Origin: Chloroflexota bacterium
Lineage (GTDB): Bacteria; Chloroflexota; UBA11872
Reading direction: 5' to 3'
DNA length: 64,000 nucleotides
Assembly (NCBI GenBank): GCA_026708035.1
Contig: JAPOVQ010000010.1
Span: forward strand, 1-64,000
Shown here: positions 29,380 to 57,019 of the stretch, piece after piece
How the letters are laid out: each line of letters opens with the position of its first letter
Numbering within the stretch: position 1 is the first letter of the stretch
Notes under the pieces: model-generated
What the model was told of the DNA's origin: nothing
The model's database searches: none
What the model saw: the letters and a program-made list of their open reading frames with translations, nothing else
Translations under genes and position numbers: made by a program

Positions 29380-29427
29380 TGGAGCCCGCACCCGGAATTG
29401 AACCGGGGACCTCGTCGTTACCAAGGA
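29380..29427 (-). other. tRNA-Thr(GGT) 3'-half remnant, copy 1 (attachment-site-like)
   Basis: On the minus strand this reads as a tRNA-Thr from inside the anticodon stem to CCA: anticodon loop TTGGTAA, variable loop, T-arm CCCGG-TTCAATT-CCGGG, acceptor strand and encoded CCA. The 5' half does not fold: the D-arm is shortened and the acceptor and anticodon stems mispair. Tyrosine recombinases commonly integrate at this part of tRNA genes and leave such 3' halves behind. This copy is more decayed than that at 38707. Confidence 0.6.
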
Positions 29428-29637: not shown

Positions 29638-30053
29638 CATCCGGTGTGCAATGGCGCCAGCACCGGCCCTGATTGCGGTCCGGCACCCGACGCCTGGCAC
29701 CGCGTCCGCAGCGCAGCCACGTGCGCCCCAGCCTGGATGGCAGGCGGGTAGCGGTCCGCTTGGGATCGAGGCCAAGAGGGTCGGCCGGACCTCTGCGCAG
29801 CAGTCACGATTGGACGTGTCGCGCGGAACCGAGGAATGAAAACACCGGCGGTCTATGCGCCTCACGCCACCCCCGCGTCGGCATGCTCCGCCAGCCCGCC
29901 CTCCGTTGACGGGTCAGAACGTTTGGCCTGATACTTATTCGGCCTGTGGTAAATCGACGTGGAATTGTTCATTTGGCGGTGAAATGCCGCGTGCCGCGGG
30001 CGCCTGCTGGGGCAGGGGCCCAATCCGCAAATGGGTGCATAGGGGGGATTCGA
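29638..30053. other. Leader region of the first peptide ABC operon
   Basis: No gene is recognisable in about 410 bp between the direct repeat and the binding-protein gene. The ribosome site is GGGGGGATTCGA directly before the ATG at 30054. I see no clear -35/-10 pair, but the operon promoter must lie here. Confidence 0.35.
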
Positions 30054-38463: not shown

Positions 38464-38706
38464 GCCAGTCGGGGCCTCAAAACCAGAGTCACGATCGTCA
38501 CCCACCCGGGCCACATGATCGCGACCGCCCGCCCCTGCGAAGGCTGGCGGAGGCCACATGGCGTGCCCTCAGTGACCTGGCAGGCGCGGGTCTAGCGAAT
38601 CGGCGAAAAGACACTCAACGGTTAAGGTGTCTACATGCGCTGTGAAAGGGCAGGCTGGCCCGCCGCAGGCGACGAGCATCGGTCTCCCAAACCTGTAAAC
38701 GTGTGC
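38464..38706. other. Region after ABC operon 1
   Basis: About 240 bp with no recognisable gene, between the DppF-like stop and the second tRNA-Thr remnant. Confidence 0.4.
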
Positions 38707-38754
38707 TGGAGCCCACACCCGGAATTGAACCGGGGACCTCGTCCTAACCAAGGA
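38707..38754 (-). other. tRNA-Thr(GGT) 3'-half remnant, copy 2 (attachment-site-like)
   Basis: Minus-strand tRNA-Thr from the inner three pairs of the anticodon stem to CCA: TCC-TTGGTTA-GGA, variable loop, T-arm CCCGG-TTCAATT-CCGGG, acceptor TGTGGGC, discriminator T and CCA. Upstream, 5 of 7 acceptor pairs can still form, but the D-arm is collapsed and the outer anticodon stem is broken. It is therefore not an intact tRNA gene. It matches the remnant at 29380. Confidence 0.65.
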
Positions 38755-38962
38755 TTTCGCTCCCAGCGCTGTGGCACCCACCTGGGGACCCCAAGCGAAA
38801 CGCATCAAATTATGGTGTGGAGGGTTTCCGGCGGTCACTTTGGTCGGCTCCGCGGGCCCGGAAACACATTCACCCGACCCGCATGAGCCAGAAATCGCGC
38901 GCAGCGATCATCGCGTGACCGGTGCTTGCCGCAATGGGAATTCCCGACTCCATCGCGCGCTC
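38707..38962 (+). repeat. 255-bp imperfect direct repeat, copy 2
   Basis: Second copy of the block at 29380-29637, same orientation, 9,327 bp away. Similarity begins at the tRNA CCA end and extends about 255 bp rightward with almost no length change. Together the copies could be the ends of an integrated module or two related insertions at tRNA-Thr-derived sites. Confidence 0.7.
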
Positions 38963-38988: not shown

Positions 38989-39019
38989 CGCTGGATGTCC
39001 CCCGGGTGGTGTGCGCAGG

Positions 39020-39064
39020 TGACTCGGGTTCAGGAGGTCGCGAGTTCGAATCTCGCCATCCCGA
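39020..39064 (+). other. tRNA-Pro(CGG) 3'-half remnant (attachment-site-like)
   Basis: Reads TGA-CTCGGGT-TCA: the inner three pairs of an anticodon stem around a loop with U33, anticodon CGG and G37, as in tRNA-Pro. Then come variable loop AGGTC, T-arm GCGAG-TTCGAAT-CTCGC, acceptor CATCCCG and A73. The sequence 5' of stem position 29 does not pair, and no matching CGGGATG acceptor strand lies upstream. This is a 3' half from the anticodon stem onward, the usual footprint of tRNA-targeting integrases. A recombinase-like remnant follows at 39143. Confidence 0.65.
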
Positions 39065-39142
39065 TCAACGACTACCTGACACGGGTTTTTCAGTTGTCAT
39101 TTGTTCGGGGACTCTCATTCGTGCTCGCCGATCCCCGATCAG

Positions 39143-39355
39143 ATGACAACTCCGGACGCCCCACCCGCCGAAGCCGCCCTCCGCGTGGCCATCCGGCCCT
39201 TCCTGCGCCACTGCCGCGCCACCCGCGCCCCGTCCACCGCGCCGTACTGCCAGGAGCGCCTGGACACCTTCGACCGCTGGCTCGACGCCGCCGGCCTGCC
39301 CCCTCGGATCGCCGCCGCTCAACGCCTCCCTCTACCAGGCCTTGCGCCCCGGCAC
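39143..39355 (+). pseudogene. Possible tyrosine recombinase N-terminal remnant
   Basis: A plus-strand frame starting ATGACAACTCCG encodes FLRHCRATRAPSTAPYCQERL and TFDRWLDAAGLP. This resembles the helical core-binding domain of phage-type integrases (many helices, xxTxxxYxxxLxxFxxWL pattern). The frame is lost near 39315, and LYQALRPGTIDRFY continues in another frame into the kinase fragment. There is no catalytic domain. The position next to a tRNA 3' half fits an integrase, but similarity is weak. Confidence 0.35.
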
Positions 39356-39530
39356 CATCGACCGCTTCTACTGCACTGATCAGGCTCGAACTCGTGGGGC
39401 GGGTGGCACGGGTTTGGGATCGGCCATCGCCCGAGCTATCGTCGAAGCCCATGGAGGCGAAATCGCCTTGGCAAGCGACGGGCCCGGACACGGCGTCACC
39501 GCCACGATCCGCCTTCCCCTGAATTCGTGA
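39356..39530 (+). pseudogene. 3' fragment of a histidine kinase gene (copy of 22838-23010)
   Basis: Encodes the last 58 residues of the BaeS-like kinase at 21604: DRFYCTDQARTRGAGGTGLG, SAIARAIVEAHGGEIALASD and RLPLNS before the stop. It differs at a few positions from the parent. The rest of the kinase is absent. It marks the left end of the duplicated segment, which cut into the middle of the kinase's ATPase domain. Confidence 0.8.
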
Positions 39531-39790
39531 GCGACAGCTTCAATCGCTGTCGCGGATAGGTGGTCGACGCCGAGACGTCGTCCGAGTGGCAGGCCGTAAT
39601 GAAGCGCGTGCGGTCAATCGCACCGCACCAACGGCGGATTGCACCGGTACACGCGGACCTCTTCGCGCAGCTTGCGGCGACGGTGAATTCTGTGCGGTTC
39701 ATCACACCGCGAGAACCATATGGCGTGTTCATCCACGGACGGCATGGCAGACTGTCGCTGGCGAGGTGGCAAGCGTCCCGAGGTGCAGCC

Positions 39791-42148
39791 TTGCAGGATG
39801 GCGAAGACTTAAGGTCCGAAAACGAGCGCTTACGATCTCGGATTTCCCGGCTTACCGAGGCAATCCTTCGGATCAGTCAACACCTGGAGCTTGAGGCGGT
39901 GCTGCAGGATGTCGCCGATAGCGCGCGATCGCTCACGGAGGCGCGCTACGCCGCAATCACCACCATGGACGACTCGGGCGAGTTCCAGGACCTGGTCTTC
40001 TCGGGTATGACCGCCGACGAAATTGAGCAGACGCTGGCGTTCGCGGATGGCCCGGCGCTCTTGCAATACCTCAGCGGACTGCAGAAGCCCCTGCGCACGC
40101 GGGACTTCGTGGCCCACGTCAAGCTGGCCGGATTTCCCGATTTCACTCCGCACATTGGCACGTTCTTGAGCGCTCAGATCGGTGAGGGGGGCAACCAGGT
40201 CGGCACGATATTCATCGGCGAGAAGAATCACGGCCTGGACTTCACCCTCGAGGACGAAGAGACCCTCGAGATGTTCGCCGCCCAGGCGGCAACGGCCATC
40301 ACGAACGCCCGGCGCTACGGCGACGAGCAGCGGGCGAAGGCCGACCAGGCAGCCCTGGTCGACACCTCGCCCGTGGGGGTGCTGGTCGTCGACGCGACGA
40401 CGCGGGAGATCGTGCAGTTCAACGAAGAAGCGCGCCGCATGGCCGGCGGGATGAACTTACAGAACCAGAACTATGAGCAGATGGTTTCGCTGCTGAGCGC
40501 TCGGCGTATCGATGGACGGGAGATTCCCCGCGGTGAAGTGCCCGTGGTTCGGGCCCTCAGCAGCGGCGAAACCGTGCGCGCCGAGGAGATCGTCATTCAC
40601 CGCCCGGATGGCCAAACGGTGACGACGCTCGTGAACGCGACCCCAATCCGTTCGGAGGACGGGGAGATTGTGTCGGTCGTGGCCACCATTCAGGACATCA
40701 CGCCGCTGGAGGAGCTGGAGCGCCTGCGCGCCGAGTTCCTCGGCATGGTGAGTCACGAGCTGCGCACGCCCTTGACCTCCATCAAGGGATCGGCCGCAAC
40801 CGCTCGGAGCGCCTCGGTCCCACTCGACCCCGCGGAGACGCGGCAGTTCTTTCGCATCATCGAGGAACAAGCCGACCACATGCGGGACCTCATCAACAAC
40901 CTGCTCGATCTGGCCAGGATCGAAGCCGGCACCCTGTCGGTCGCGCCCGAACCCACGGACGTCGCCGACGTCATTCACGGCGCGCGCGACGCCTTCCTCA
41001 GCAGCGGCTACCGGAACAGCGTCGCAGTGTCTGTCGAACCGGACCTCCCCCGGATCCCGCTGGATCGCCAGCGAGCGAGCCAAGTCCTCTACAACCTCTT
41101 CTCCAATGCATCGAAATACTCGCGCGAGTGGTCCGCGATACGCGTCACCGCCTCGCTTCAGGACCCGTACGTGGCCGTGAGAGTCGCGGACGAGGGACGG
41201 GGAATCTCAGCCGAGCAACTCCCCCGCCTGTTCAGCAAGTTCTCGCGGATCGACTTCGAGCATGGTCCGGAAGTCGAGGGGGCCGGCCTCGGCCTGGCGA
41301 TCTGCCGCGGCATCGTGGAGGCGCACGGCGGGCGCATCTGGGCCGAGAGCGACGGCGAGGGCCGGGGCACCCGCTTCACGTTTACGCTGCCCGCGGTCGA
41401 CACGATGGCCGAACCGTCCGCGAGCCCCGCCACGGCGACCGCGCCCGGAGCGTCCGCCGGGTGGGAACGCGTCCTCGCCGTCGACGACGATCCCCAGGTG
41501 TTGCGCTACGTGCGCAATGTTCTCTCGGAAGCCGGCTACTCGGTCACCGTCACCAGCGAACCGGATGAATTCGACCGCCTCATCGAGGCCGAGCAGCCGC
41601 ACCTGGTCCTGCTGAACCTGATGCTGCCCGGCACCAGCGGATTCGAGCTGATCACGCGCATTCCCAACGTGTTCGAAGTTCCGGTCATCTTCCTGTCCGG
41701 TCGCGGCCGGGAACAGGACTTTGCCCAAGCCTTCGAAATGGGCGCCGCCGACTATCTGGTCAAGCCGTTTGCGCCAACCGAGCTCGTGGCACGCATCCGG
41801 GCGGCGCTGCACAAGCGGTCCGTCTACCGCCAGGCCCAGGCGGTAGAGCCCTTCCGCATTGGCAACCTCACCATCAACTATCTGGAACGCACCGTCACAG
41901 AGGCGGGCCGTCCAATCACGCTCACGCCCACCCAATTCAAGCTGCTGGCGGAGCTTTCCAACAATGCCGGACGGGTCCTCTCGCACGACGAGTTGCTCCG
42001 AAGTGTCTGGGGGCCGGGCCATTCGGCCGATCAGCCGCTGCTGCGGTCGTTCGTCAAGAGCCTGCGCAGCAAGCTCGGGGACAACGCGAGAGACCCCGTC
42101 TACATCTTCACCGAGTCGGGAGTCGGCTACCGCCTGGCAAAGCCGTAG
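39791..42148 (+). CDS. Single-chain GAF-PAS-histidine kinase-receiver-winged helix protein, copy B
   Basis: A 785-residue paralogue of the protein at 23272 with the same domain order and one extra codon in the PAS region. The GAF and PAS sensor parts differ at many residues (for example GMNLQNQNYEQMVSLLSARR against GGLLGRGRSLEQALSLFTFR), so the two probably sense different ligands. From residue about 287 onward the proteins are the same, including His322 and the receiver Asn609 that replaces Asp. The TTG start follows GAGG by 7 nt; the frame is open upstream to 39560. The two would recognise the same DNA sites. Confidence 0.85.
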   Translation: MQDGEDLRSENERLRSRISRLTEAILRISQHLELEAVLQDVADSARSLTEARYAAITTMDDSGEFQDLVFSGMTADEIEQTLAFADGPALLQYLSGLQKPLRTRDFVAHVKLAGFPDFTPHIGTFLSAQIGEGGNQVGTIFIGEKNHGLDFTLEDEETLEMFAAQAATAITNARRYGDEQRAKADQAALVDTSPVGVLVVDATTREIVQFNEEARRMAGGMNLQNQNYEQMVSLLSARRIDGREIPRGEVPVVRALSSGETVRAEEIVIHRPDGQTVTTLVNATPIRSEDGEIVSVVATIQDITPLEELERLRAEFLGMVSHELRTPLTSIKGSAATARSASVPLDPAETRQFFRIIEEQADHMRDLINNLLDLARIEAGTLSVAPEPTDVADVIHGARDAFLSSGYRNSVAVSVEPDLPRIPLDRQRASQVLYNLFSNASKYSREWSAIRVTASLQDPYVAVRVADEGRGISAEQLPRLFSKFSRIDFEHGPEVEGAGLGLAICRGIVEAHGGRIWAESDGEGRGTRFTFTLPAVDTMAEPSASPATATAPGASAGWERVLAVDDDPQVLRYVRNVLSEAGYSVTVTSEPDEFDRLIEAEQPHLVLLNLMLPGTSGFELITRIPNVFEVPVIFLSGRGREQDFAQAFEMGAADYLVKPFAPTELVARIRAALHKRSVYRQAQAVEPFRIGNLTINYLERTVTEAGRPITLTPTQFKLLAELSNNAGRVLSHDELLRSVWGPGHSADQPLLRSFVKSLRSKLGDNARDPVYIFTESGVGYRLAKP

Positions 42149-42281
42149 CGGCTCTCGACACGCCGGCCGATCAGACCGTGCCGGAGCGCCTAGACCGCGG
42201 GCAGGCGGGCGAACTGCTCGGCCGGGACACCCGGAGTCTTGGCCGTCGTGGTCCCGTGGGCAAGCCCACACCATGTGAAAC

Positions 42282-42313
42282 GCGGGGGCGCGGGAAGACT
42301 CCCGCGCCCCCGC
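42282..42313. terminator. Bidirectional terminator hairpin
   Basis: A 14-bp perfect GC stem (42282-42295 with 42300-42313) and an AGAC loop lie between the convergent kinase B and giant-protein genes. On the minus strand GTTTCA follows the stem, so it best serves the giant gene; it may also stop the kinase transcript. Confidence 0.7.
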
Positions 42314-42373
42314 GCCCGCTGAGCGCTAACTCGGACTTTCGCGCTCACCAAGGTCACGATCCCTTGGCGACCG

Positions 42374-45300
42374 CTACATGGCCGGTCGAAGCGTCCCCAC
42401 CGTCCCGGACGCTTCGTCGTCGTCGTCCTTCTTCCTGCGTCGCAGGACGAACAGGAATACTGCCGCCAGGGCACCCAGCATCGCCGCCCAAAGGGACATC
42501 TGGTACTTCCACTTCAGCACCGACGCAAGGAGCCCCAGCACCGAGAGAAATCCCGTCCAGGTGACGCTGACGAGCAGGGTCGTTTCGGGCGTCCACGCCA
42601 CGACGCCCGGCAGCACGCCTACGTTCGCATTGGCCACCGCGAATCCCGCATTCGGCGCCGCGCCTCGCTCGGGCGCGTACACGCCAAAGCCGGCTCGCGT
42701 TTGTCCCTCGGCGTTGGATGCGGCGCGTGATTGCAGCGTGGTCACCGTGGGGCTATCGCCGGAACCGTCCGGCGGGCTCGCCGGTCCCGGATTGCCCGGA
42801 TCGCCACCGGGGTTGCCGGGGTTCCCAGGGCCATTCGGGCTGGTGGGGTCGTCCGGATCGCCGGCGGGCGGCGCGGTGGGTGTGGGCCCAGGCGTGGGCG
42901 AAAGGTCCGGCTGCGGGGTGGGCGTTGGCTCAGGCGTGGCCGTCGGCTGCGGCCCAGGCGTAGGCGTCGGCTGTGGCCCGGGCGTGGGAGTCGGCTGCGG
43001 CCCGGGCGTCGGTGTCGGTTCAGGCGTGGGCGTGGGCTGAGGCCCAGGAGTCGGCGTCGGGCCAGGCGTGGGTGTCGGCGTCGGCCCAGGCGTGGGCGCA
43101 GGCGTCGGGCCGGGCACGGTCTGACCAGGCTCCGCCAAAGACGTGCGACCGAAGCCGACGTCCGACCAGGGGCCCAGACCCTCCACGTTGGCCGCCGCCA
43201 CCTGAACGACGTAGGAAGTCTCTGGCTCCAGACCTTGGAGCGTGGCCGAGTAGCCGACGCCAACGAAGGTGTGGGAGATCCACTGCGCCGCGCCCACCGC
43301 CCGATAGCGGAGGTCGTAGTCCGTGATGTCCGGTCGGCCCTGGTTGGCCGGGGCCGTCCACGTCACGTCCAGCACGCTCGTCGGCTGGGCAGTCGACGGC
43401 GCCACCGCCGGCGCGGCCGGCTTGGCCGGCGGCAGCTGGTCAAGCACGTTGATCGTCACGTCCACCGTGGCGTCGATCGACGGGTCCGCCTCGCCCGCCG
43501 CGTCCTTGCCGTCGGTCACGCTGACCATGACCTTGTAGGAGGCCGTGGTCTCGTAGTCCAGCACCGCGCCGTCCGCCACGCGAATCTGGCCGGTGGCGGC
43601 ATCGATGACGAAGGCGTCCGCGCCGGACAGTGCGTAGGTCAGCGCGTCACCGTCGGCATCGGTCGCCGTGACCGGGGCGCCCACGAGCGTGCCGACCGGC
43701 GCGTTCTCCGCCACCTTGCGGATCGTCCCGGGGTCGCCGGGTTGGCCTCCGAAGTCTGGCGGGACATTGGATTCTGAGGGCGGGATATCTACCGCAACCA
43801 CGTCGATGACCACGGTGATGATGGCGTTGACGATGTGATCATCAGACGGACCCGGCTGGGTGTGGCTCGCCCGCACCGTCAGGGTGTGCTGATGCGCGAC
43901 CGAGTGGTTCAAGCGCGTGCCTTCGGCCACCCGGATCTGCCCGGTGGCGCCGTCGATGGTGAACTCGGCGTGCTCATCACTCGACTGGCGCGCCCTGTCT
44001 TGCACGATGGCATAGGCGAGCGTGTGGCCCTGCGCGTCGGTGGTCGTGACGGGGGCGCCCACCGGGGCGCCTGCCGGCGCATCCTCGGACACTTCCCGGC
44101 TGGCGGTCAGCAGCGCGGGCCCGGTGATGCCGGTGCCGCTTTCCGACCAGGGGCTCTCACCCTCATCGTTTCTGGCCAGCACCTGCACCTCGTAGACCGT
44201 GCCCGGCGCGAGGCCGCTGATGACGGTCCCAGGCTTCGCGCCGTCGAAGGGGTGGTCTATCCAGTCATTGGGCCCCCTGGCGCGGTAGCGAACGTCGTAG
44301 TCGGTCGTGGCCGGCACCCCTTGCACGGCGATGTCCGACCAATCCACGTCCAGTGACGTTGCGGGGGCCGTGGCGGTCGGCTCCGCCCGCGGCGCGTCCG
44401 GTCGGTGCGGCGGCTCGGCCACGTCGACCACGGTGATGGTCACCGTCACTTCGGCGTCGACGCTGTGGTCGTCGTCCGCCCACGTGATGTCCAGGCCGTC
44501 GCTGACCTCGATGACCACGGTGTAGGAATCACCGGCCTCGTGGTCCAGGAGCGCCCCCGTGGCCACGCTGAGCTGCCCGGTGCCCGCGTCCAGGGCGAAG
44601 AGGGACGACGCCTCCCGCAGGGTGTAGGTGAGCGCGTGCCCGTCGCGGTCGATGGCCGTTATCGGATTGCCCAGCAGGGTTCCCGCCGGCGAGTTCTCCG
44701 GCACCGAGCGCTCTCGGGTCAGGGCGACGAATTGGGGCGGACTGTTGTTTCCGATCGTGGATCCTCTACCGGGCGCCGACCAGTCGCCGGCGCTGTCGGC
44801 GTTGCGCGCCCGCACCCGGACCTCGTAGGCCGTCTCGGACGTCAGGCCGGTGAGCGTCGTGTAGGTCCCCGCGCTGGTGAAGGGGCGGTCCGTCCAGCTG
44901 TCGTCACCCTGCTTCCGATACTCCACGTCGTAGTCGACGATGGGCAGGCCGGTGCCGGTGTCCGGCGCCGTCCAGGCCACGTCGAGCACGGTCATGGCAT
45001 TGGCCAAAGGCGACGTCACCGACGGACGATCCGGCGCCGGCGGCGAGAGATCGACGTTCACCGACCACTGCCGCGCCGCCCTGTTGTCCCATCCGGCGTA
45101 GTCTTCGAACTCGCCGGAGGCAATATTCACGGTCAACCGTCCGCTGCGTGTGGGGGTAATGTCCGCCTCGTAACGCCACTGGCCCACCTGCCGGAATTCG
45201 GTCACCCGTCCGTTGACGACGGTCAGGTCATCCGCAGCGAAATCGACAATGTTTTCGGTTACCAGAATGTGTATGCCGAAGGGCCCACGCTGAGTCGTCG

Positions 45301-48300
45301 TCGGACCGGTGATGCGATGCACGCGCGGTCGATCGGCGTCCGAGTAGACCTCGAAGTACGCCCCGAGCCCGCGCCAGTTGACCCAAATCCGGGTTCGGTA
45401 GGGCCAGGTGCCCCATCGATATCCGTAGTACTCGGGCGTCAGGGTGAAGGTCGCGGTGTTTCCCTCGACGCTGACGGGTACGGGGGTCTCCGAGTTCCAA
45501 GGCCTGAAGCTGAAGTCGTCGCCGGGCGGCTGGGAGAACGTGGCCACGACCTCGAATGAGTCCCAGCTCAAGCGGGTCCCAGAGGGGCCTTCGAGCCTGA
45601 GCCACAGATACGTCGAAGTCTTGGAGGTGTCCGTTCGCGGGGCGAGATCGCCGTTGCCGGCGACGGCCGCGTCCGCCGCTACCGTGACCGTGACATCGCC
45701 CTCGCCGTCGGGCGTCACCTTGGCGGTGTAGACCGCGCCGCTGCCCGACAAGTCCCCCAGCGTGCCGTTTTCAACGGTGACGTCTGAGGCGTCGAAGCCG
45801 GTCACATCCGTCCCGAATGTGAAGGTCACGTTGAGCGGTTGCAGCTTTATGAACCTCTCCGGCAGGTCGATCGCGACCGTATACGCGAGCGTCAGCTCGA
45901 TCGTGACGTCAATCACGGCCGGCCGGCCCTGCACGGTGTAGTTCACCTGGCCCGTGTAGGAGCTCTTGGTCGCGTAGTCCAACGTGGCGCCTTCCGCCAC
46001 GCTGATCTGGCCGCTGGCCGTGTCGATGACGAAGTTGCCGGAGTCCGCCGCCTCGCCCGTCAGCGTGTAAGTCAGCGCATCGTCGGTCTGATCGTCGCCG
46101 TCGTCGTAGGGCGTCCCGGTTATCGGGTCGCCCACCGGCGTGCCGGCCGGGGAGTTCTCACCGACGTACCGGCGCACGGAGTCGGTGACCGTGACCGTCA
46201 CCGTGCGGGAGACATACCCGCCGTACCCGTCATGCGCCCCGTAGGTAAGCGTCGACGAGCCGGGATTGATGCCTTCGACGTTGAGCGTGGCCGCCTCTTC
46301 GCCAGAGCCGATGTCCGTATCGGAGATTCCGACGCCGAGCACGCCCGGGTACTCCGCAGAGGCGGCGAAACTCAGCGCGTCACCGTCGGGGTCGAGGAAA
46401 TAGCCGGTCTCGATCGGCTCGTTGAATTCGGTGGCCCGCACGATCTCGCGATCCTGCAGAGCGTCCGCGGTTGTCGTCGGCGGTCGATTGGCCTGCCCTT
46501 CCCCGGTGTCCGACCAGGGGCCTTCGCCTTCGAGAGCCGTGAGCGCGCGCACCTGGAATCCGTAAGTCGCGCCCGCCTCCAAGTCCGGCAGGTTGATGCT
46601 CAGCGTCGCTGCCGACAGCTTGCTGGTGACAGCCTCGTTGACGTCGGTGTACGTGTACGCCGTCCACGCCTCGGGGGTCTCGCCGTCGGCGACCTGCTTG
46701 CGGTATTGGACCTCGTAACCGGTGATGGTGGCGCCATTGGCGTCGGGCGCCGTCCAGGTCACATCGAGGGCCGGGGCCGTCGGCTCGTCGAATTGCGTGC
46801 GCGTCACCGTGGGCGCGTCCGGCTTGCCGGCCTCGGCGTCGGTCACGTTGATGGTCAGGTTGATGGCCGTCGCATACCCGTTGACCGTGTACTCGACCTT
46901 GCCCGTGTAGGAACTCTTGGTCTCGTGGTCCAGGTTGGCGTCTTCTTGGACGCTGATCTGGCCGGTTGCGGAGTCGATGACGAAAGCCCCGGACGTGGCC
47001 GCCTCGCCGGTCAGCGTGTAGGTCAGCGCATCGTTGGTCGCATCGTCGCCGTCGTCGTAGGGCGTCCCGGCCACCGGGTCGCCCACCGCCGTGCCGGCGG
47101 CGGAGTTCTCGGCGACGCTCCGGGTTTCATTCGCGGTTCCGGTCAATTTGAAGGTGCGCGACGCGTATCCGCCGTAGGCGTCATGCGCGCCGTAGGTGAT
47201 GGTGGTCGTACCCGGATTGCGGATGAGTGAGTAGATGTCTGCCCCGTCCATGCGAACGCTGACTACGCCGGGGAGGTTTGACGAGGCGGAGTAGCTCAGC
47301 GTGTCGCCATCGGCGTCTTGGAAGACGTTGCCGATACTCCCAGCAACCTCGCGGCCCCACGTCCCGGTGTAGTCGGTGAGGAACCAGGCGGTGAGATTCG
47401 GCAGGCGGTTGGCCCGCCCCTCGCCGCTGGCCGACCAGGGACCGTGGCCTTCCTTGGCAGTGGTCGCGCGCACCTGGAATTCATAGGTCGCGCCGGCTTC
47501 CAGGTCCGGCACGGTGACGCTCAGCGTCGATGCCGGCAGTATGACGATGACACGCTCGTTGGCGTCGGTATAGGTGTACGCCGTCCAGGCGTTGGGGGTC
47601 TCGCCGTCAGCGACCTGCTTGCGGTACTGGACTTTGTAGCCGTCGATGGTGGTGCCGTTGGCATCGGGAGCGGTCCAGGCCACGTCCAGCCCCGGGTTGG
47701 TCGGCTCGCTGTACTCCGTGCGCGCCAGCGTGGGCGCGTCGGGTTGGCCGGCCTCGACGTCGGTCACGTTGATGGTGACGTTCGCGACGGCCTCCTGGCC
47801 CTGCACGGTCCACTTCACCTTGCCGGTGTAGGAGCTCTTGGTTTCGTAGTCCAGGTTGGCGTCTTCCTGGACGCTGATCTGGCCGGTGGCGGAGTCGATG
47901 ACGAAAGCCCCGGAGGTCGCCGCCTCACCCGTCAGCGTGTAGGTCAGCGCATCGTCGGTTTCATCGTCGCCGTCGTCGTAGGGCGTTCCGGTGACCGGAG
48001 CGCCCACCGCCGTGCCGGCGGGGGAGTTCTCGGCAACCGACCGCGCCACATTCAGAATGGCCGTCATTGTTACGGTGCGAACGAGGTGGCCCCCATATCC
48101 GTCGTGTGCTTCGTAGTAGAAGATGGACGTACCTGGATTATTGAAGCCGCCTACCATGCACTGTTGTCCACCTTTAGTCTCCAGCCACACGCGAGCTATG
48201 CCGGAATACTCCACGGACACCGCATAGCTCAACGAATCCCCTTCTGGATCGCTGAAAAAAGCGGGCATGCAGCGCTTGGGGGCGAAATAGAGCTTCGCGT

Positions 48301-51300
48301 TCAATCCAGTTTGATCTGCTATGTAGATCCCAGTGGCAGCCGGCGGACGGTTGGCCCGTCCCGATCCGATGTCCGACCAGGGGCTGGGGCCTTCCTTGGA
48401 CGTGAGCGCCCGCACCTGCACCTCGTAGGTCGCGCCGGCCTCCCGATCGGTTAGGGCAAGGCTGGCCCGCTTCAGCACCACTACCTTTCCGGATATGGGC
48501 TCGGTGTAGGCCGTCCACTCCTCGGGAGTTTCACCGTCGGCGACCTGCTTGCGGTACTGCGCCTCGTAGCCAACGATGCTCGCGCCGTTGGCGTCCGACG
48601 CCGTCCAGGTGACGTCCAGCGCCGGGTTGGACTCTTCCTCGAACCTCGTGCGCGTCACCGTGGGCGTTCCGGGTGTGCCGGCTTCGATGTCGATCACCTG
48701 GATGGTGACGTCGGCGTAGGCTTCCTGCTCCTGCACGGTCCAGCTCACGCGCCCCGTGTAGGAGCTCTTGGCCTCGTAGTTGATGGTGGCGCCCTGCTTG
48801 ACGCTGATCTGCCCGCTAGCCGAGTCGATCGTGAAGGCGTTCGACGTCGCCGCCTCACCCGTCAGTGAGTAGGTCAGCGCATCGTCGGTCTGATCGTCGC
48901 CGTCGTCGTAGGGCGTCCCGGTCACCGGGTCGCCCACCGCCGTCCCGGCGGCGGAGTTCTCGGCCACGCTTCGGCGCACATCCGCGCCGTTGAAGGCGTC
49001 AGCGGAGCCGCTGACGTCGATGGTCTTCGAGGCGTAGCCGCCGTACCCGTCAGACACCCCGTAGGTGACCGTTGACGTCGACGGATTGAGGACGTGGATC
49101 CGCAGCTTGTCGGAGTTTTCGCCCTCGATACCGACCCTGAGCACGCCGGGATACTGGGCCGAGGCCGAGTAGGTCAGCGTGTCGCTGTCGTCGTCCGCGA
49201 ATTTGTCGTTGAGCGTTCTGACGGAGTCGGCTCCGCCCCACAACAGGGTGTAGCTCGGTTGGAGATTGGGCGCTTCCGTGGACCGCGGGGGCCGGTTGGC
49301 ATGGCCCGACCCGGTGTCCGACCAGGGGCTGGGACCTTCCATGTTGGTGAGCGCGCGCACCTGGATCTCATAGGTCGCGCCCGCGTCGAGGTCGGGCAGC
49401 GTCACGCTGGTGGCCGTCGCGGGCAGCGAGCTCGTGACGTCGCCGCCGGAGTTGGTGTAGGTGTAGGTCGTCCACGCATTGGGCGTCGCGCCATCGACGA
49501 CCTTCGTGCGGTACTGAACCTCGTAACCGGTGATGGTGGCGCCGTTGGCGTCCGACGCCGTCCAGGTGACGTCCAGCGCCGGATTGCTGGGCTCGCTGAA
49601 AGCCGTCCGCGTCACCGTGGGCGTGCCGGGGGCCCCGGCCTCGATGTCAATCACCTCAATGGTGACGTCGGCGAAGGCTTCCTGCTCTTGGACGGTCCAA
49701 TTCACCCGCCCCGTGTAGGAGCTCTTGGCCTCGTAGTCGATGGTTGCGCCCTGCTTGACGCTGATCTGGCCGGTGGCCGAGTCAATGGTGAAGGCGTTCG
49801 ACGTTTCCGCCTCGCCGGTCAGCGTGTAGGTCAGCGCATCGTCGGTCTGATCGTCACCGTCGTCGTAGGGCGTCCCGGTCACCGGGTCGCCAACCGCCGT
49901 TCCGGCGGCGGAGTTTTCGGGCACGCTTCGGCTTAGATCCGCGCCGTTGATGGCCTCGGCGGAGCCGCTGACGTCGATGGTCTTCGAGGCGTAGCCGCCG
50001 TACCCGTCGGTCACCCCGTAGGAGACCGTTGACGTCGACGGATTGAGGACGTGGATCCGCAGCTTGTCGGAGTTTTCGCCCTCGATACCGACCCTGAGCA
50101 CGCCGGGATACTGGGCCGAGGCCGAGTAGGTCAGCGTGTCGCTGTCGTCGTCCGCGAACTTGTCGTTGAGCGTCCTGACGGAGTCGGCTCCGCCCCACAG
50201 AAGGACATAGCTAGGTTGGAGGTTGGGCGCTTCCGTGGAGCGCGGCGGCCGGTTGGCCCGGCCGGAGCCGGTGTCCGACCAGGGGCCCTCGCCCTCCCCG
50301 CTGGTGACCGCGCGTACCTGCGCCTCGTAGGTCGCGCCGGCCTCGAGGTTGGACAGGGTGAGGCTCGTCGCCGCGGCGCCCAGCGCGCCGCTGTACGCCG
50401 TCCAATCGGCGGCTTCCTCACCGTCGGCGGCCTTCTTCCGGTACTGCGCCTCGTAGCCGGTGATGGTCAGTCCGTTGGCCGCAGGCGCCGTCCAACTCAC
50501 GTCCAGCCCCGGGTTGGTCGGCTCGCTGTACTCCGTGCGCGCCAGCGTGGGCGCGTCGGGCTTGCCGGCCTCCACGTCCGTCACCTTGATGTTGACGGTG
50601 ATGACGGCGGCGTTGCCATCCACGGTGTAGTGCACCTCGCCCCGGTAGAACTTGGCGATCACCTGGCCGTTGAATGTTTCGGTCTCCCGGCTGGAATCGT
50701 CGGTCTCGTAGTCCAGCGTCGCGCCCTGCGCCACGCTGATCTGGCCGCTCGCGGAGTCGATGACGAACCTTCCGGAGTCCTTCGCCTTACCCTTCAGCGT
50801 GTAGCTCAGCGCCACGCCGTTGTACGGCGTCCCCGTCACCGGGTTCCCCACCGCCGTGCCGGCGGCGGAGTTCTCGGCGATCTCCCGACTGGTCTTCGCG
50901 GTGATGCCGATGGTCGCGGTGCGAGTCACGGACCCGCCGTATGGGTCGGTGGCGGTGTAGGTCACCTTCGACGAGCCCTGATTGAGCAGCGTCACTCGCA
51001 ATTGGGCCTGCCCCGCGTCACCGGACAGGCTGACCCCGAGCAAGGCCGGATGCTGTGCGGCGGCCGCATAGGTCAGCGCATCGCCATCCGCGTCGGCGAA
51101 CATGACCCCCAGCGCGCCGTTCCCAGTCTCGTTGTAATCGGCAGTTGAGCCCACCGAGAACGTGCCGCCATTGAAGAGTGCGCTGGTCGCGGTCGGCGGG
51201 CGGTTGGACTGGCCGGTCCCGGTGTCCGACCAGGGGCCGGCGCCCTCGTTGCTCTGCACCCGCACCTGCACCTCGTAGGTCGCCCCCGCCTCGAGGTCCG

Positions 51301-53119
51301 CCAGGGTCAGATTCGTCGCCGTGGCGTCCAGCGCGCCGCTGTACGCCGTCCAATCGGCGGGGTCCTCACCCTGCGCGGCCTGCTTGCGGTACTGCGCCTG
51401 ATAGCCGCTGATCGTCACCCCGGCAACCGACGACGGCGCCGTCCAGCTCACGTCCAGCCCCGGGTTCGAAGGCTCGCTGTACTCGGTTCGACTCACCGTC
51501 GGTGCGCCGGGCTTGCCGGCCTCGACATCCGTCACCTTGATGTCGACCTTGATGACGGCAGCGTGGCCGTCGACCGTGTAATGCACCTCGCCCCGGTAGA
51601 ACTTGGCGATCACCTGGCCGTTCCAGGTCTCGGTCTCCCGGTGGGAATCGTCGGTCTCGTAGTCCAGCGTCGCGCCCTGCGCCACGCTGATCTGGCCGCT
51701 GGCCGAGTCGATCACGAACTTTCCGGAGTCCTTGGCGTTGCCCTTCAGGGTGTAGCTAAGTGCCACACCGTTGTAGGGCGTCCCCGTCACCGGGTTCCCG
51801 ACCGCCGCGCCGGCGGCGGAATTCTCGGCAATCTCCCGGCTTTCCTCCGCGGTGATGCCGATGGTCGCGGTGCGGGTCACCGACCCGCCGTAAGGGTCGG
51901 TGGCCGTGTAGGTCACGTTCGACGAGCCCTGATTGAGCAGGGTGGCCCGTAAATGGGCCTGCCCGGCGGCGCCGGACAGGCTGATCCCGACCAAGGCCGG
52001 ATGCTGCGCCGCGGCGGAATAGGTCAGCGCGTCGCCGTCGGCGTCGGCGAACATGACCCCCAGCGCGCCGTTTCCGGTCTCGCGGTAGTCAACTTTGGTG
52101 CCGACCGAGAAGGTGCCGCCATTGAAGAACGCGCTGGTCGCGGCCGGCGCCCGGTTGGACCGGCCCGAGCCGGTGTCCGACCAGGGGCCGCGCGCTTCGT
52201 TGTTCAGCGCGAGCACCTGCACCTCGTAGGTCGCGCCCGCCTCCAGGTCCGACAGCGTCAGGCTCGTCGCCGTGGCGCCCAGCGTGCCGCTGTACGCCGT
52301 CCACTCCGCGGGATCGTCGCCTTCCGCGGCCTTCTTGCGGTACTGCGCCTCGTAGCCGGTAGGAGTCGCGCCGCTGGCCGGGGCGGTCCAGGTCACGTCC
52401 AGCGCCGGGTCGGTGGGCTCGCTGAACGTCTTCCGTGTCAGAGTCGGCGTGCCGGGCTTCTCCGGAGCGGAGGCGCCCTGCACCTGGAGCGCCGTCGCAC
52501 GGATGACGATCCGGAACGACACAGCGACCTGGGCGCCGTTCGCGTCCGTGGCGGTGTAGATCATGGAGTGCTCGCCGCGCTCGCTCGGGGTTCCGGTGAG
52601 GCCGCGGCTGGCCGGGTCGAAGGACAATCCCGCGGGCGGGTCCGGCGACAGGGCGTAAGTGAAGCCACCGGCCCCGCCGGCGGCTTCGGGCAGCGTCTGC
52701 GTGCCGATGTCCTCGCCCTTGTCGAAGTCGTATCGGCTCAAAGCGACCGGGAAGTAGGGCGGCTGCTCAGTCTTGGCCGTGGACTCAGGCGTCGACTTCG
52801 TCGTGGGTGTGGCTGTCGGCTCGGGCGTCGGCTCGGGCGTCGGTTCGGGAGTCGGCTCGGGAGTCGGTTCGGGCGTGGGCTCGGGGGTGGGCTCGGGCGT
52901 TGGTTCGGGGGTGGGCTCGGGCGTTGGTTCGGGGGTCGGTTCAGGCGTTGGTTCGGGCGTGGGCTCGGGTGTGGGAGTCGTGTTCGATTCGGTCGTTGTC
53001 TCTTGCGCGGCGACTGCGGGCGGGGCGAAGGACACCAGAAGCGCCCAGGCCACCGCGGCTAGAATGCAGGCGATCACCGCCACGTGAAGGGCTCGGCCCC
53101 CCAGACTCCGTCCACTCAT
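42374..53119 (-). CDS. Giant multidomain surface protein: ten FN3 and about ten cadherin-like domains, C-terminal membrane anchor
   Basis: A 3,581-residue protein. A signal peptide (residues 1-38, [20 protein letters not shown]) precedes a (PEPT)n stalk (about 44-120) and an Ig/putative-sugar-binding-like domain. A repeating unit of about 318 residues follows: FN3 ([12 protein letters not shown], [15 protein letters not shown]), a beta-sandwich with DPYGG or DGYGG, and a cadherin-like domain ([16 protein letters not shown]...[11 protein letters not shown]). Two Big-like Ig domains lie near residues 2410-2690. The end has a second proline-rich stalk (about 3336-3410), two hydrophobic helices and RRRKKDDDD. 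It is probably a cell-surface adhesin with the C-terminus inside. It is flanked by its own terminator. Confidence 0.9.
42870..43115 (-). repeat. Proline-rich tandem repeat region (C-terminal stalk)
   Basis: In-frame repeats encoding [10 protein letters not shown]- and TPTPEPTP-type units, about 75 residues. They form an extended spacer between the last FN3 domain and the membrane-proximal segment. Low-complexity DNA such as this often varies in length between strains. Confidence 0.8.
48650..50560 (-). repeat. Two nearly identical ~957-bp modules in the giant gene
   Basis: GGTCTTCGAGGCG occurs at 49022 and again at 49979, an offset of 957 bp, and the flanking 200 bp read almost identically. 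Each module encodes one FN3, one DGYGG sandwich and one cadherin-like domain. The likeness at synonymous sites suggests recent duplication or conversion. Confidence 0.75.
50560..52450 (-). repeat. Second pair of similar ~951-bp modules in the giant gene
   Basis: CCCCGGTAGAACTTGG recurs at 50640 and 51591, an offset of 951 bp. These modules have the [14 protein letters not shown] cadherin variant and the [19 protein letters not shown] sandwich, so they form a subgroup distinct from the pair at 48650-50560. Confidence 0.7.
52805..52985 (-). repeat. PEPT hexapeptide-type tandem repeat (N-terminal stalk)
   Basis: Short direct repeats of 12 bp encode (PEPT)n, about 15 units, directly after the signal peptide. 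It should be an extended, possibly wall-spanning spacer. It is coding repeat DNA, not a CRISPR array. Confidence 0.85.
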
Positions 53120-53216
53120 ACGCTCGCTCGCCCCCCTGCGTCACCGGTTTCCATTGCCGATCGGCAACGGATGACCTGATCAACGATTGCTCGCCGCAAT
53201 CGGTGTGAAAAGCAAT

Positions 53217-53269
53217 ACATGCGGGAGACAGTGCATGTGTTACACAGTATTTGTCAAATGCAAATACTG
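53217..53269. promoter_or_regulatory. Two inverted repeats between the giant gene and the MarR gene (operator candidates)
   Basis: CAGTATTTG (53245-53253) and CAAATACTG (53261-53269) are a perfect 9-bp inverted repeat with a 7-bp spacer. ACATGC/GCATGT (53217-53222, 53233-53238) is a second one. They lie 100-150 bp upstream of the giant gene in an AT-rich island. MarR-family dimers bind sites of this size and symmetry, and a MarR gene is encoded next door. Confidence 0.5.
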
Positions 53270-53573
53270 AGAAAGGCATCCATTGCAAGCGCAACATCGT
53301 CGTTGGCGCACAGCGTTGGCCCAGCGGCCAGGTGATGGCGGAAGCAGTCGCCGCCAACAGCGGACGGCAACCGAATGCGGGCAGCTCGAGGTGGAGGCGC
53401 CTGGACTTTCCGTCGGTCAGGCGCGGGAGATGCTCGGGCGCTCCGTGAGTCGGGCGATGCCGCCGACGTCGAGCAGAATTTCGATTCCGAGCCTTCTGGC
53501 CGGCCGCCGCCCGACGGCTACGCCCCTAGGCGTCCACGGTCGCCGGCCGTCGGGGCCGGCATGCTCAACGTTC
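53270..53573. other. Gap upstream of the MarR gene
   Basis: About 300 bp with no recognisable gene; open frames here have shadow composition. It ends in the -10 element of the MarR gene. Confidence 0.35.
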
Positions 53574-53579
53574 TATAAT
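53574..53579 (+). promoter_or_regulatory. Consensus -10 element of the MarR gene
   Basis: A perfect TATAAT lies 20 bp before the ATG at 53600. No good -35 hexamer is found 16-18 bp upstream, so it may need an activator. Confidence 0.5.
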
Positions 53580-53599
53580 CTCGCGCGGTTGACTAGAGG

Positions 53600-54082
53600 A
53601 TGACAGACCTGCAGCAACCCGCACCCGGCGGTCATGACCACCGGCCGGGCGAGCCGCCGTCCTTGGGATTGCGGACGATTCGCCTGAGCACCGCGATCAT
53701 GAAGGCCTTGGCCGATGAGGCGGCGCCGCACGATCTTCAACCCGTGGAGTTCAACCTCTTGCAGTACTGCGCGGAAACTGGAGAGTGCACCGCGACGCAG
53801 TTGGCGCAAGTGCTGCCCGTCGACGCGTCGCGGATCAGCCGCATCGTGACGCGGTTGGTTGAGAAGGATCTCCTGATCAGGCGTCGGCTGCCCCATGACC
53901 GGCGCACGGTCATGCTCAGTCTGACCAAGGAGGGAAGGCGCTTGGTTGTGGAGCTCGCCGGGCGCATCCAGACTTACCTGCTCAGGCTCTTGGAGGGATG
54001 CGACGAGGGAGAGTTGCTCATGGTCGAGGCCCTCACCGCCCAAATGCAGACCAACTATGTGGCCATGCTCGAGTCCCAGTAG
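53600..54082 (+). CDS. MarR-family transcriptional regulator
   Basis: A 160-residue winged-helix regulator: dimer helix (LRTIRLSTAIMKALADE), HTH (CTATQLAQVLPVDASRISRI with recognition helix), wing DRRTVMLSLTKEG, and a long C-terminal dimer helix. MarR proteins usually repress neighbouring genes until a phenolic or other ligand binds. The giant gene is divergent from it and the methyltransferases are convergent, so the inverted repeats at 53217-53269 are the obvious candidate sites. The message leader may be as short as about 13 nt. Confidence 0.88.
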   Translation: MTDLQQPAPGGHDHRPGEPPSLGLRTIRLSTAIMKALADEAAPHDLQPVEFNLLQYCAETGECTATQLAQVLPVDASRISRIVTRLVEKDLLIRRRLPHDRRTVMLSLTKEGRRLVVELAGRIQTYLLRLLEGCDEGELLMVEALTAQMQTNYVAMLESQ

Positions 54083-54280
54083 CGCCAACAGGCGCCGTCC
54101 CAAGAACATCGCAGTCCTGGGTGCGGCCGAGCCCTCCTCGGGCCGCCGTTAGGTCCGTTAGGTCGAGCACCGCGACCGTCGCCGACACTTCGCGCCGATT
54201 CCCTGAGGAGTCCCGCGCGACCTGACAGTGCCGCCGCCCGGATCACGGCCTCCGTCGGTTCGCGTTCGGCCTGGTCGCGG

Positions 54281-55105
54281 CTACGGCTTGCTGGCGACGG
54301 CCTCGCCGAACGCAAGATTGCAAAGAGCCCCGGGATGGTCCTTCCAACGGATATAGGCCTCGCGAATCCGCTCGACCAGCTCGGGGGTCGACGCCCCGTA
54401 CTTAATGGCCGCCTCCGTGATTTCGGGCGACAGGAACCACTGATTGGCGAAACCGAAGATGAACTCGACGTCCGCCGGCGTGCTGTAGACGTCCCACGAT
54501 CCGGTGATCTGGATGTGCGCGAACCCGGCCTCGACGAAGTGGGTCTTGAGCTCCTTCCCTATCTGGGGATGCCCGTCGTCGGCCGCGAGCAGGTCTTCGA
54601 ACATGTCCCACGAACTCCGGAGCACGCCGAAATTTGGCTGGTTGAAGCAGGACGCGCAGATCATCTCCCGGCAGGCAATGAGGCCGCCGGGTTTCAGCAC
54701 CCGCATTACCTCGGTCAGCACGGCGCCCGTGTCCGGAATGTGCATGAGCACGTTGTGGCAGTGGGCGACATCGAAAGAGTCGTCATCGAAGGGAAGGTTG
54801 GTCACGTCGCCAACGTGGAAGATCGCGTTCTCCCGCCCCTGTGATGCGGCGACGGCCCGGGCCAACTCGATCTGCGACGCTTCCATGTCGACGCCGTGCA
54901 GCTCACCGGGATCGATGGCCTTGGCCAGACCCACCGAGATGGTGCCCGGTCCGCAGCCGAAGTCGAGCACGCGCAGGCCGGGCCGGAGATATGGCAGCAA
55001 ATACGCGGCGCTGGCCTCCGCCGTATAGCGCCGCAGGGACTCCAGCATTTCCTGGCTGAATCCCATGGTGTAGTCGGGTGTCGCAGATGTCCCATCGGTC
55101 ATCAT
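54281..55105 (-). CDS. SAM-dependent methyltransferase (class I), paralogue 1
   Basis: A 274-residue class I methyltransferase. SAM motif I is VLDFGCGPGTIS; the acidic end of the next strand is HGVDMEASQI; then VGDVTNLPFDDDSFDVAHCH and LKPGGLIACREMI. The C-terminal 90 residues are helical and may bind the acceptor. The family includes UbiE-like and small-molecule methylases; the acceptor is unknown. Either of two adjacent ATGs could start it. It is the downstream member of a tandem pair separated by 98 bp. Confidence 0.87.
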   Translation of the reverse strand: MMTDGTSATPDYTMGFSQEMLESLRRYTAEASAAYLLPYLRPGLRVLDFGCGPGTISVGLAKAIDPGELHGVDMEASQIELARAVAASQGRENAIFHVGDVTNLPFDDDSFDVAHCHNVLMHIPDTGAVLTEVMRVLKPGGLIACREMICASCFNQPNFGVLRSSWDMFEDLLAADDGHPQIGKELKTHFVEAGFAHIQITGSWDVYSTPADVEFIFGFANQWFLSPEITEAAIKYGASTPELVERIREAYIRWKDHPGALCNLAFGEAVASKP

Positions 55106-55203
55106 CGTGTAACGGTCCCCTCTTGTTGTCGGCTATCCGCCCTGACGCGCTGCCGGCGGCGGCGCACTCCACGCACTTGGCGTCAGCGAGACGGATGCGC
55201 TGC

Positions 55204-56040
55204 TCATCGCAATGGTTTGTTGGCGATCGCTTCCCCGTAGGCGAGGCCGCAGAAGGCTGCGGGATGGCTCTTCAACTTGCCGTAGGAGGACCGGATGTCG
55301 CTGTAGAGCCCCCGCGAGAAGGCGCCGTACTTGATGGCCGCTTCGACGATCTCCTCGGAGAGGAGGAATCGGTCGATGAGGTCATAGATGACGGCGATCT
55401 CTTTGGGCGTGCTGTAGGTGCTGAACGACGCGGACATGCGGACGTTCTCGAATCCGGCCTCCACGATGTGGCCCTTCATCTCCTTGCCCATCTGGGGATG
55501 CCCGTCGTCGGCGGCGACGAGGTCTTCAAACAGATCCCACGATCGCCGCGTGCCACCGAAATCGGGATACATGAAGCTCGATTCACAGATCATCTCCCGG
55601 CACGAAATGATCCCGCCGGGCTTCAGGACGCGCTTCACCTCGGCGAGCACCGCGTGCGTGTCCGGGACATGAATGAGCAGGCGATGGCAGTGGGCCACAT
55701 CGAAGTAGCCATCCTCGAAGGGAAGGTCGGTCGCATCCCCAACCTGGAATATCGCGTTCTCCACTTTCTTCACCCGCGCTGTCGATCTCGCCAGGGCGAC
55801 CTGGGACTCTTCCATGTCGACGCCATGCAGCTCGCCGGGCGCCACCGCCTCGGCCAGGCCCACCGAAATGGTGCCCGGCCCGCACCCGAAATCCAGCACG
55901 CGAAGGCCTGGCCGGAGATAGGGCAACAGATGCCGGGCGTGGGACTCCGCCGTCGCGCGACCCAGGGCGTCAACGGCTCCCGCGCCGTAGCCCATCGTGT
56001 AGTCAGGCGTTGCGGACGTCAGCGTCGCCACCGCGGTCAT
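55204..56040 (-). CDS. SAM-dependent methyltransferase (class I), paralogue 2
   Basis: A 278-residue protein that aligns end to end with its downstream neighbour: SATPDYTMGY, LLPYLRPGLRVLDFGCGPGT, GELHGVDMEESQ, FDVAHCHRLLIHVPDT and AADDGHPQMGKEMK. It clearly arose by tandem duplication. Motif I and the post-I acidic residue are intact, so both copies should be active. The start at 56040 gives the same N-terminus as the paralogue; an upstream ATG at 56166 is not supported. Confidence 0.87.
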   Translation of the reverse strand: MTAVATLTSATPDYTMGYGAGAVDALGRATAESHARHLLPYLRPGLRVLDFGCGPGTISVGLAEAVAPGELHGVDMEESQVALARSTARVKKVENAIFQVGDATDLPFEDGYFDVAHCHRLLIHVPDTHAVLAEVKRVLKPGGIISCREMICESSFMYPDFGGTRRSWDLFEDLVAADDGHPQMGKEMKGHIVEAGFENVRMSASFSTYSTPKEIAVIYDLIDRFLLSEEIVEAAIKYGAFSRGLYSDIRSSYGKLKSHPAAFCGLAYGEAIANKPLR

Positions 56041-56620
56041 CGCGTCATCGAGACCCCAATCTCGTATCAAGAAGTATACATAGCTTCCAATCTTTATGAA
56101 CGGATCACATCGAGAGCGAGGGCGGCAAGAATCGCCAGCGGGCGGCCCTTCACTGAGCCCAACCACGCCTGGTGGCGCTATCGGTCGCAGCCCCGATCTC
56201 GTCGACCTGTCGTCTCGGGGACGACCGGCCGTTTCACATTGGCCGGTTGCTTGACCGCGTTGACACCTCGAACATGAATACCTAACAATAGTATAGTGTC
56301 AACTGTAAATGCCGATTAACAGATTACCTCGTGCGGAGCAGCAAACAACTGGTCTCGGGAGATCTAAGACAGGTCCCTGAATCAAGCACTCGCAGACGCG
56401 GTGCAACGCAGATTATGAACTCCGAAGGCTTGCGACGGGCGGTTCGAATCGGCCTCCGCGGCATCCGTGGGGTCCGCACGACTCTCCCGCATTCGCGGAG
56501 ACGAAGTGCCGACATCGATCCGACGCCGCCAGCCAATGGGCGGCCGGCGGCAAACAACCCCCATTCACCCGCAGTCCGAAGCTTTGCCGTCGGTCGCCTC
56601 ACTCCTTGCTCGACGGGGCA
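56041..56620. other. Gap upstream of the methyltransferase pair
   Basis: About 580 bp. The stretch around 56265-56330 is AT-rich (CTAACAATAGTATAGTGTCAA) and is a likely promoter zone for the leftward methyltransferases. No gene is recognised in the remainder. Confidence 0.35.
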
Positions 56621-56767
56621 ATGGAGGGCCTAAGCGCCGTCAACATCGCCACCGTGGCCTTTATCGTTTGCTCCCTCGCGGCCCTCGTCGTCAATCTCGT
56701 CTACCGCTGGCGCCAACCCGACCCCATCGATGACATGCTGCACCGGGTCAGGAAGCACGATCGCTGA
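56621..56767 (+). CDS. 48-residue single-helix membrane protein
   Basis: A short frame with convincing protein character: a 20-residue hydrophobic helix (VNIATVAFIVCSLAALVVNL), then YRWRQPDPIDDML and a basic end HRVRKHDR. By the positive-inside rule the N-terminus would be outside. Only a weak GGGG lies before the ATG. No homologue is recognised. It is the same direction as the GntR gene 300 bp downstream. Confidence 0.5.
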   Translation: MEGLSAVNIATVAFIVCSLAALVVNLVYRWRQPDPIDDMLHRVRKHDR

Positions 56768-57019
56768 CAGGCGTCGTTTCGCCCCAACCCATGCTTTCCG
56801 TTCGGCGTGGGATCCGCGCGCGAACTCCCTGGAATCAGCGCGTGGAGCGTTCCCGGGCCCTCGGGTAGTCGCCGCGTTCGCGACGCGCAAGGGCGTGCCG
56901 GCGACCCGGCGGCAACTGGCCGCGACCTCAGCGACCGTGGATTCAACCCAACAGCTGCCACGAATGGACGCTCTACGCGACCCTGGCTGGTGGGAGCTAT
57001 TGCCTCGTACCCGAAATAA
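56768..57019. other. Gap between the small membrane protein and the GntR promoter
   Basis: About 250 bp with no recognisable gene. Confidence 0.3.

Follow-up and report, generated by a model that had tools for sequence, protein, structure and literature searches.

The window analysed here is a stretch of 64,000 nucleotides from a Chloroflexota bacterium (contig JAPOVQ010000010.1), and one gene on its minus strand, at 42374-53119, encodes a giant modular protein of 3,581 amino acids. The frame starts with ATG, is unbroken and occupies 16.8% of the window, in agreement with the original prediction of a 3,581-residue gene filling about a sixth of it. The GC content at the three codon positions is 0.63, 0.55 and 0.86, which is coding-like, and the frame is real and not a product of chance. 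A scan for promoters and terminators gives no signal exceeding that of shuffled sequences. The protein consists of a signal peptide, a PEPT stalk, a He_PIG domain, seven FN3-MID-CAD units, two Big_12 domains, FN3-CAD-FN3-CAD-CAD-FN3, a P/T/G-rich stalk and an anchor, where MID is our own name for the Big_9-like middle domain and CAD stands for the cadherin-like domain. The domain boundaries are taken from the sequence and from profiles built from the 3,581-residue protein itself. The features of the gene are as follows.

42374..53119, minus strand: whole gene, 3,581 amino acids (frame list and translation)
53006..53119, minus strand: signal peptide, residues 1-38 (sequence, cleavage site placed by eye; hydrophobic peak)
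52790..52990, minus strand: N-terminal PEPT stalk (sequence)
52475..52762, minus strand: He_PIG-like domain, approximate limits (Pfam, residues 150-206 matched)
51521..52462, minus strand: unit 1, FN3-MID-CAD, MID type A (profiles, clustering)
50570..51517, minus strand: unit 2, FN3-MID-CAD, MID type A (profiles, clustering)
49640..50566, minus strand: unit 3, FN3-MID-CAD, MID type B (profiles, clustering)
48683..49636, minus strand: unit 4, FN3-MID-CAD, MID type B (clustering, AlphaFold2 model)
47753..48679, minus strand: unit 5, FN3-MID-CAD, MID type K (clustering)
46832..47749, minus strand: unit 6, FN3-MID-CAD, MID type D (clustering)
45881..46828, minus strand: unit 7, FN3-MID-CAD, MID type C (clustering)
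45041..45880, minus strand: two Big_12 domains (Pfam)
43142..45040, minus strand: FN3-CAD-FN3-CAD-CAD-FN3 (profiles)
42755..43132, minus strand: P/T/G-rich second stalk (sequence)
42374..42754, minus strand: family-specific anchor with two hydrophobic helices (about 42515-42583 and 42437-42499), an RRRKK-acidic tail and the end LRPAM (alignments, AlphaFold2, hydrophobicity)

The protein contains about 30 beta-sandwich domains. Pfam fn3 matches 10 stretches with an E-value (E) of 3.7e-106 (348 bits against a gathering cut-off of 25) and Cadherin matches 8 stretches with an E of 6.6e-63 (209.6 bits against 28.8), and further stretches are assigned to Big_9 (7), Big_12 (2) and He_PIG (1). Both the FN3 part and the cadherin part find matches in a profile search of the sequences of solved structures. 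The unit period over the first seven units, measured from their start positions, is 307-319 residues, so that the modules of about 318 residues in the original prediction stand in length, although each is made of three domains and not of two. The predicted alternation of FN3 with cadherin-like domains does not hold, since FN3-MID-CAD is repeated seven times and is followed by two Big_12 and six single FN3 or cadherin domains. The (PEPT)n stalk at the N-terminus and the two Big-like domains, now seen as Big_12, were read correctly; MID, the variable domain, and the island described below were overlooked. An AlphaFold2 model of unit 4, made with 68 aligned units as input, is all-beta and confident across all three domains, with a pLDDT (predicted local distance difference test) of 92.8. 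Cadherin ectodomains head the Foldseek list obtained with this model, with contactin FN3 arrays lower; whole-chain TM-scores (template modelling scores) are 0.23-0.27, low values that we attribute to the comparison of three flexibly linked domains at once.

The variation among units is concentrated in MID. The unit statistics cover 68 units from the first 12 arrays, set apart from the 2,503-residue frame of genome G010 and the loci L096 and L101-L107. Mean identity is 65% for FN3, 41% for MID and 64% for CAD, and clustering at 60% identity gives 3, 19 and 2 clusters, respectively. High-entropy columns, over 2.5 bits, number 5 of 113 in FN3, 35 of 101 in MID and 3 of 98 in CAD. Three features recur in all 68 MIDs, namely the motif D.(D/E)(G/S/N/D)D and two turns, N(P/Q) and (Y/F)GG, and the cadherin-like domains carry an early EN or ENS in 57 of 68 units and [LI]D[YFHW]E in 56 of 68. 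The commonest MID types are A (18 of the 68 units) and B (12). The last MID is of type C in 11 of the 12 arrays, the exception being G008a, and the internal units vary, often with rare types; within the 68-unit set, the type K MID of unit 5 has no more than 42% identity with any MID of another protein. Type B MIDs are 88-95% identical in the pairs OWN_4/G004_1, G013_1/OWN_4 and G013_1/G004_1 (OWN being the window protein), two of which are between genera, indicating that MID is not simply fast-evolving. The clearest apparent case of cassette exchange is unit 2 of G013 and G004, in which the protein identities are 89% in FN3, 34% in MID and 87% in CAD. Per 20 codons, the DNA identities are 70, 91, 95, 95, 93 and 78% in FN3, 35, 46, 52, 23, 61 and 48% in MID, and 85, 88, 95, 88 and 84% in CAD, so that MID alone differs between flanks that are mostly 84-95% identical. 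Between unit 7 of the window protein and its G004 counterpart, the DNA identity in MID falls to 70-83% only.

The C-terminus is formed by a helix pair with a charged tail, as predicted. Hydrophobic peaks start at residues 3513 and 3539, and AlphaFold2 places helices within the last 130 residues, at positions 60-84 and 91-119, with a mean pLDDT of only 53.5. WTPE, a pair of hydrophobic stretches, an R/K cluster and acidic residues are common to all 14 C-termini of the family, which close with (L/F)(R/S)PA(T/M). The count of the (R/S)PA(T/M) ending comes from family sequences not selected by that ending; the homologous frames of the array set were picked by it. LPXTG/sortase-anchored proteins have a signal peptide, repeats, a proline-rich stalk, a terminal hydrophobic helix and an R/K cluster, all of which are common with the window protein. 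In contrast, the window protein has two helices and a conserved tail past the charged cluster. No LPXTG-type model reaches its cut-off (the best, TIGR01167, scores 15.6 against 15.9 bits), and sortase is found in none of the 19 family genomes in a search whose control is positive in 3 of 14 named genomes. The Pfam scan gives no autotransporter beta-barrel family, the C-terminus being made of hydrophobic helices instead. The original prediction was right on both of these absent signals. Its proposal of a surface protein is well supported by the predicted signal peptide, the stalks, the extracellular-type domains and the terminal hydrophobic helices.

The use of the anchor as a sorting signal on other kinds of protein was considered and rejected, all 14 anchored ends in 41 class genomes closing FN3/cadherin arrays. 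Three weak anchor matches outside the family (E 0.004-0.009) were not accepted: L037 reads as a protein of another kind, and tblastn gives no match for the remaining two. None of the three is recovered by the class-wide alignment search, whose scope excludes the two from other classes. The three genomes outside the family that have the unit differ at the C-terminus, L103 having a long single hydrophobic stretch and L101 a hairpin with a long tail. In the array frame at L104 (3940-9255), the hydrophobic hairpin of the C-terminus is followed by six arginines and, last, by an FN3-like domain. If FN3 is always outside, this suggests that the tail beyond a hairpin can also be external.

In the genomes searched, the anchored form of the array occurs in one family only. 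The last 142 residues have strong matches in 12 of 121 genomes, all of the window's family, and a search for the anchor (about 130 residues) with an alignment of the 14 ends finds it in 12 of 41 class genomes, which are 12 of the 19 family genomes, and nowhere else in the class. The three-domain unit is present in 14 of the 41 class genomes, including the three outside the family, and among 400 phylum genomes the same 14 are the only ones found (E 1e-40 or better). Thirteen named loci encode the same C-terminus, and all belong to Chloroflexi/Chloroflexota metagenome-assembled genomes. The bin names of the jk18x series are those given to bins from Caribbean Ircinia sponges in PMC9531527, and the prefixes COS and RHO would suit two sponges studied in PMC8163846, Coscinoderma and Rhopaloeides. 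The lead to sponge-derived Chloroflexota is supported through names only: by their bin names, the named relatives look like sponge symbionts. For the class, GC content and source would be in keeping with UBA2235 or UBA11872 as PMC10608941 describes them. Two giant arrays stand in tandem at L044/L045 in G008 and at L046/L105 in G007. The window's genome has more long FN3/cadherin frames of 1,225-2,788 residues at C25:97-114 kb, C14:126-130 kb and C36:4-7 kb (L018-L021), and the anchor search finds no second anchor copy in it. L022 (4952-10019) holds four tandem paralogues of about 360-390 residues with FN3 matches.

The gene lies within a block of neighbours that is shared with the congener G004.

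39560..42148, plus strand: hybrid histidine kinase/response regulator with a DNA-binding output, convergent neighbour (domain search, locus comparison)
53600..54082, plus strand: MarR-family regulator (domain search)
54281..55105, minus strand: methyltransferase 1 (domain search)
55204..56166, minus strand: methyltransferase 2 (domain search)
39013..56768, no strand: 17.8-kb block common to the window and the island of G004 (genome comparison)
39027..39057, plus strand: 31-bp exact copy of the 3' half of tRNA-Pro, left end of the block (sequence match)

The hybrid kinase is convergent beside the array in 10 of 13 fetched anchor loci, as in the window; at L044 (G008) and L046 (G007) the array is followed by a second array, and at L048 the rest of the contig has no match. 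Where a locus extends far enough (L042, L043, L044, L046, L102, L106 and L107), the opposite side of the array carries methyltransferase and MarR-like genes. In the congener G005 the flanks of the window's block (up to 38530 and from 56880) are only 141 bp apart, the block being extra in the window, and at the same site G004 has a different stretch of about 5 kb. The sequences that flank G004's own block lie next to each other in both other genomes, with 88 bp between them on contig C14 of the window's genome and 85 bp in G005. This second site is tRNA-Pro(GGG), intact at L041 2460-2536 in G004, at L157 10417-10493 in the window's genome and at L158 12201-12277 in G005. A copy of the tRNA-Pro 3' half marks the far end of G004's block (L154 13742), which is spread over two contigs, so that the block there has a tRNA-Pro 3'-end repeat on either side; in the window, the tRNA-Pro fragment at 39027 lies 14 bases inside the start of homology with that block. 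With the tRNA-Pro site occupied in G004, empty in G005 and the window's genome, and the block elsewhere in the latter, the block behaves, by genome comparison, as a tRNA-Pro island. The window genes examined between 38.9 and 56.2 kb include no integrase, and part of G004's block falls in an assembly gap. G001 and G003 have the kinase gene and an end piece next to the same outer flank, without the array, and these may be remnants. A second hybrid kinase copy in the window (23077-25626) is 89% identical to that at 39560-42148, and the region around it is conserved in G005 and G004.

An intergenic repeat of about 220 bp (38690-38920 and 29379-29592), with a tRNA-T-arm-like stretch recognised by eye, has seven full or partial matches in the genome and is present also at the empty site of G005; neither ARAGORN nor Rfam gives a call for it. 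A phage or plasmid origin of the unit was considered and set aside, no relative being found in the viral contigs or plasmids searched. A solute-binding protein of family 5 is encoded at 29946-31979 of the window; its N-terminal region is long, and there are tandem repeats at 30206-30409.

Taken as a whole, the reading that we favour, with moderate confidence, is that the protein is a Sec-exported, membrane-anchored modular adhesin or receptor with an exchangeable MID slot. Its best-supported steps would be export via Sec, attachment to the membrane through the helices at the C-terminus, and projection of the chain of about 30 domains; fully extended, a chain of this length would measure roughly 100 nm and would take the array past the cell envelope. 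A constant scaffold would be formed by the FN3 and cadherin-like domains. Because the scaffold is constant and the slot varied, MID may set the binding of each unit, and exchange or duplication of MID cassettes may shift specificity between strains. The gene would move between chromosomal sites, and probably between strains, on the tRNA-Pro-associated island together with the kinase/regulator, MarR and methyltransferase genes. That the neighbouring kinase controls the array is a guess with only their linkage behind it. The ligand may be sponge matrix, another symbiont or a phage. A more specific form of the favoured reading is tentative: the protein may be a recognition receptor with one main exchange slot and at least 19 cassette types pooled, spread on a relocating tRNA-Pro island and setting partner specificity in the sponge.

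Several points weigh against the favoured reading. Adhesion is inferred from sequence. The anchor is missing from 7 of the 19 family genomes, four of which are congeners 92-97% complete, and therefore the gene is accessory; a part in aggregation or symbiosis, as suggested by the original prediction, would be that of an accessory gene. Among 2,278 unit pairs compared with thresholds of 80% and 50%, only MID is low in six, only FN3 in four and only CAD in none, and the six MID-only pairs, which involve few units, are not independent of one another; by these identities, exchange is not exclusive to MID. Classical Ca2+-dependent cadherins have interdomain calcium ligands including a DxNDN linker, and an NDN or NDH calcium linker is found in none of the 68 cadherin-like domains. 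Single-ratio codon models of all sequences of each of the four largest MID types give omega values of 0.10-0.21 for types A-D, that is, purifying selection on average, and only for type C does MID (0.21) clearly exceed its FN3 (0.08), with its CAD at 0.16. Pairwise values had looked high, as in the last unit, where OWN_7 against G004_4 gives a pN of 0.18 and a pS of 0.25, but in view of these omega values the claim of diversifying selection on MID was dropped.

Most of the remaining probability is divided between two rivals, a passive spacer and a biofilm protein of a general kind. It is unlikely, but deserves weight, that the array builds only length or an outer coat, with MID as loosely constrained filler. 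The great length, the repetitive make-up, the stalk at each end and the purifying selection without a sign of positive selection all fit such a spacer or envelope scaffold, and the Pfam scan of the protein finds no ligand-binding domain of known type besides FN3, cadherin and Big. However, MID types A, B and D are each conserved across genomes while types differ at about 35-40% identity, a pattern that loose drift would not predict, and the MID-only boundaries are abrupt. We give a rather small chance to a matrix protein of a general kind that serves in biofilms or binds polysaccharides and lacks partner specificity; its FN3 and cadherin-like domains would attach to carbohydrates or to one another. 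In bacteria, the two domain families have roles that involve carbohydrates or biofilms (PMC8163846), and the accessory distribution is in keeping with this, but the diversification of one domain position is left unexplained. That the array is a surface protein exposed to phages, MID diversity being phage escape and not host or partner recognition, is improbable; cassette exchange and an accessory, mobile distribution would fit, and the lack of a phage or plasmid relative of the unit says little about receptors. Misassembled repeats or several fused genes are scarcely credible: the DNA is a metagenome-assembled genome, several relatives reach contig edges within their arrays and the G004 copy has a frameshift, but five complete homologous frames of 3,280-4,416 residues have a common layout and the longest exact repeat internal to the gene is 135 bp, which speaks against the assembly of separate genes that the original prediction had named as its possible refutation. 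In that G004 copy (L107), the signal peptide and stalk are in a different frame from the array, reflecting either a sequencing error or a broken gene.

The favoured reading of a modular adhesin or receptor places the protein beside several known systems. FN3 and cadherin genes are enriched in sponge symbionts (PMC8163846, PMC9531527) and undergo lateral transfer there (PMC8163846), and the domain families, the phylum and the kind of source are the same as here; these studies, in their available text, count domains per genome or lineage and contain no description of the three-domain unit and its MID slot, of the anchor or of the tRNA-Pro island. No description of the unit, the anchor or the island was found in the open-licence papers searched. 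Giant1-5 of Apilactobacillus kunkeei are surface proteins of 3,000-8,000 residues from a bee symbiont that are diversified by intragenic recombination (PMC12863079). They resemble the window protein in being giant, recombining surface proteins of an animal symbiont, but they have solenoid or helical repeats, and the available main text mentions neither fibronectin nor cadherin and no one-slot exchange (PMC12863079). The RTX and other Ca-stiffened giant adhesins, the subject of PMC7493085, have a tandem beta-sandwich extender projecting from the cell, as here. In contrast to them, the window protein has no RTX family among its 16 Pfam rows, and it ends in C-terminal membrane helices and not in a type I secretion signal. 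The block is like tRNA-associated islands in its 3'-tRNA direct repeats in G004 and the empty tRNA-Pro sites of congeners, and differs from them in its position in the window, away from the tRNA-Pro gene, and in having no integrase among the window genes examined.

For the biology of these apparent sponge symbionts, the finding offers a concrete protein with a defined variable slot, an anchor and a mobile block where the available text of the sponge-symbiont work gave domain counts. The question of what FN3- and cadherin-type domains bind, and whether the slot decides it, can now be asked with single MIDs.

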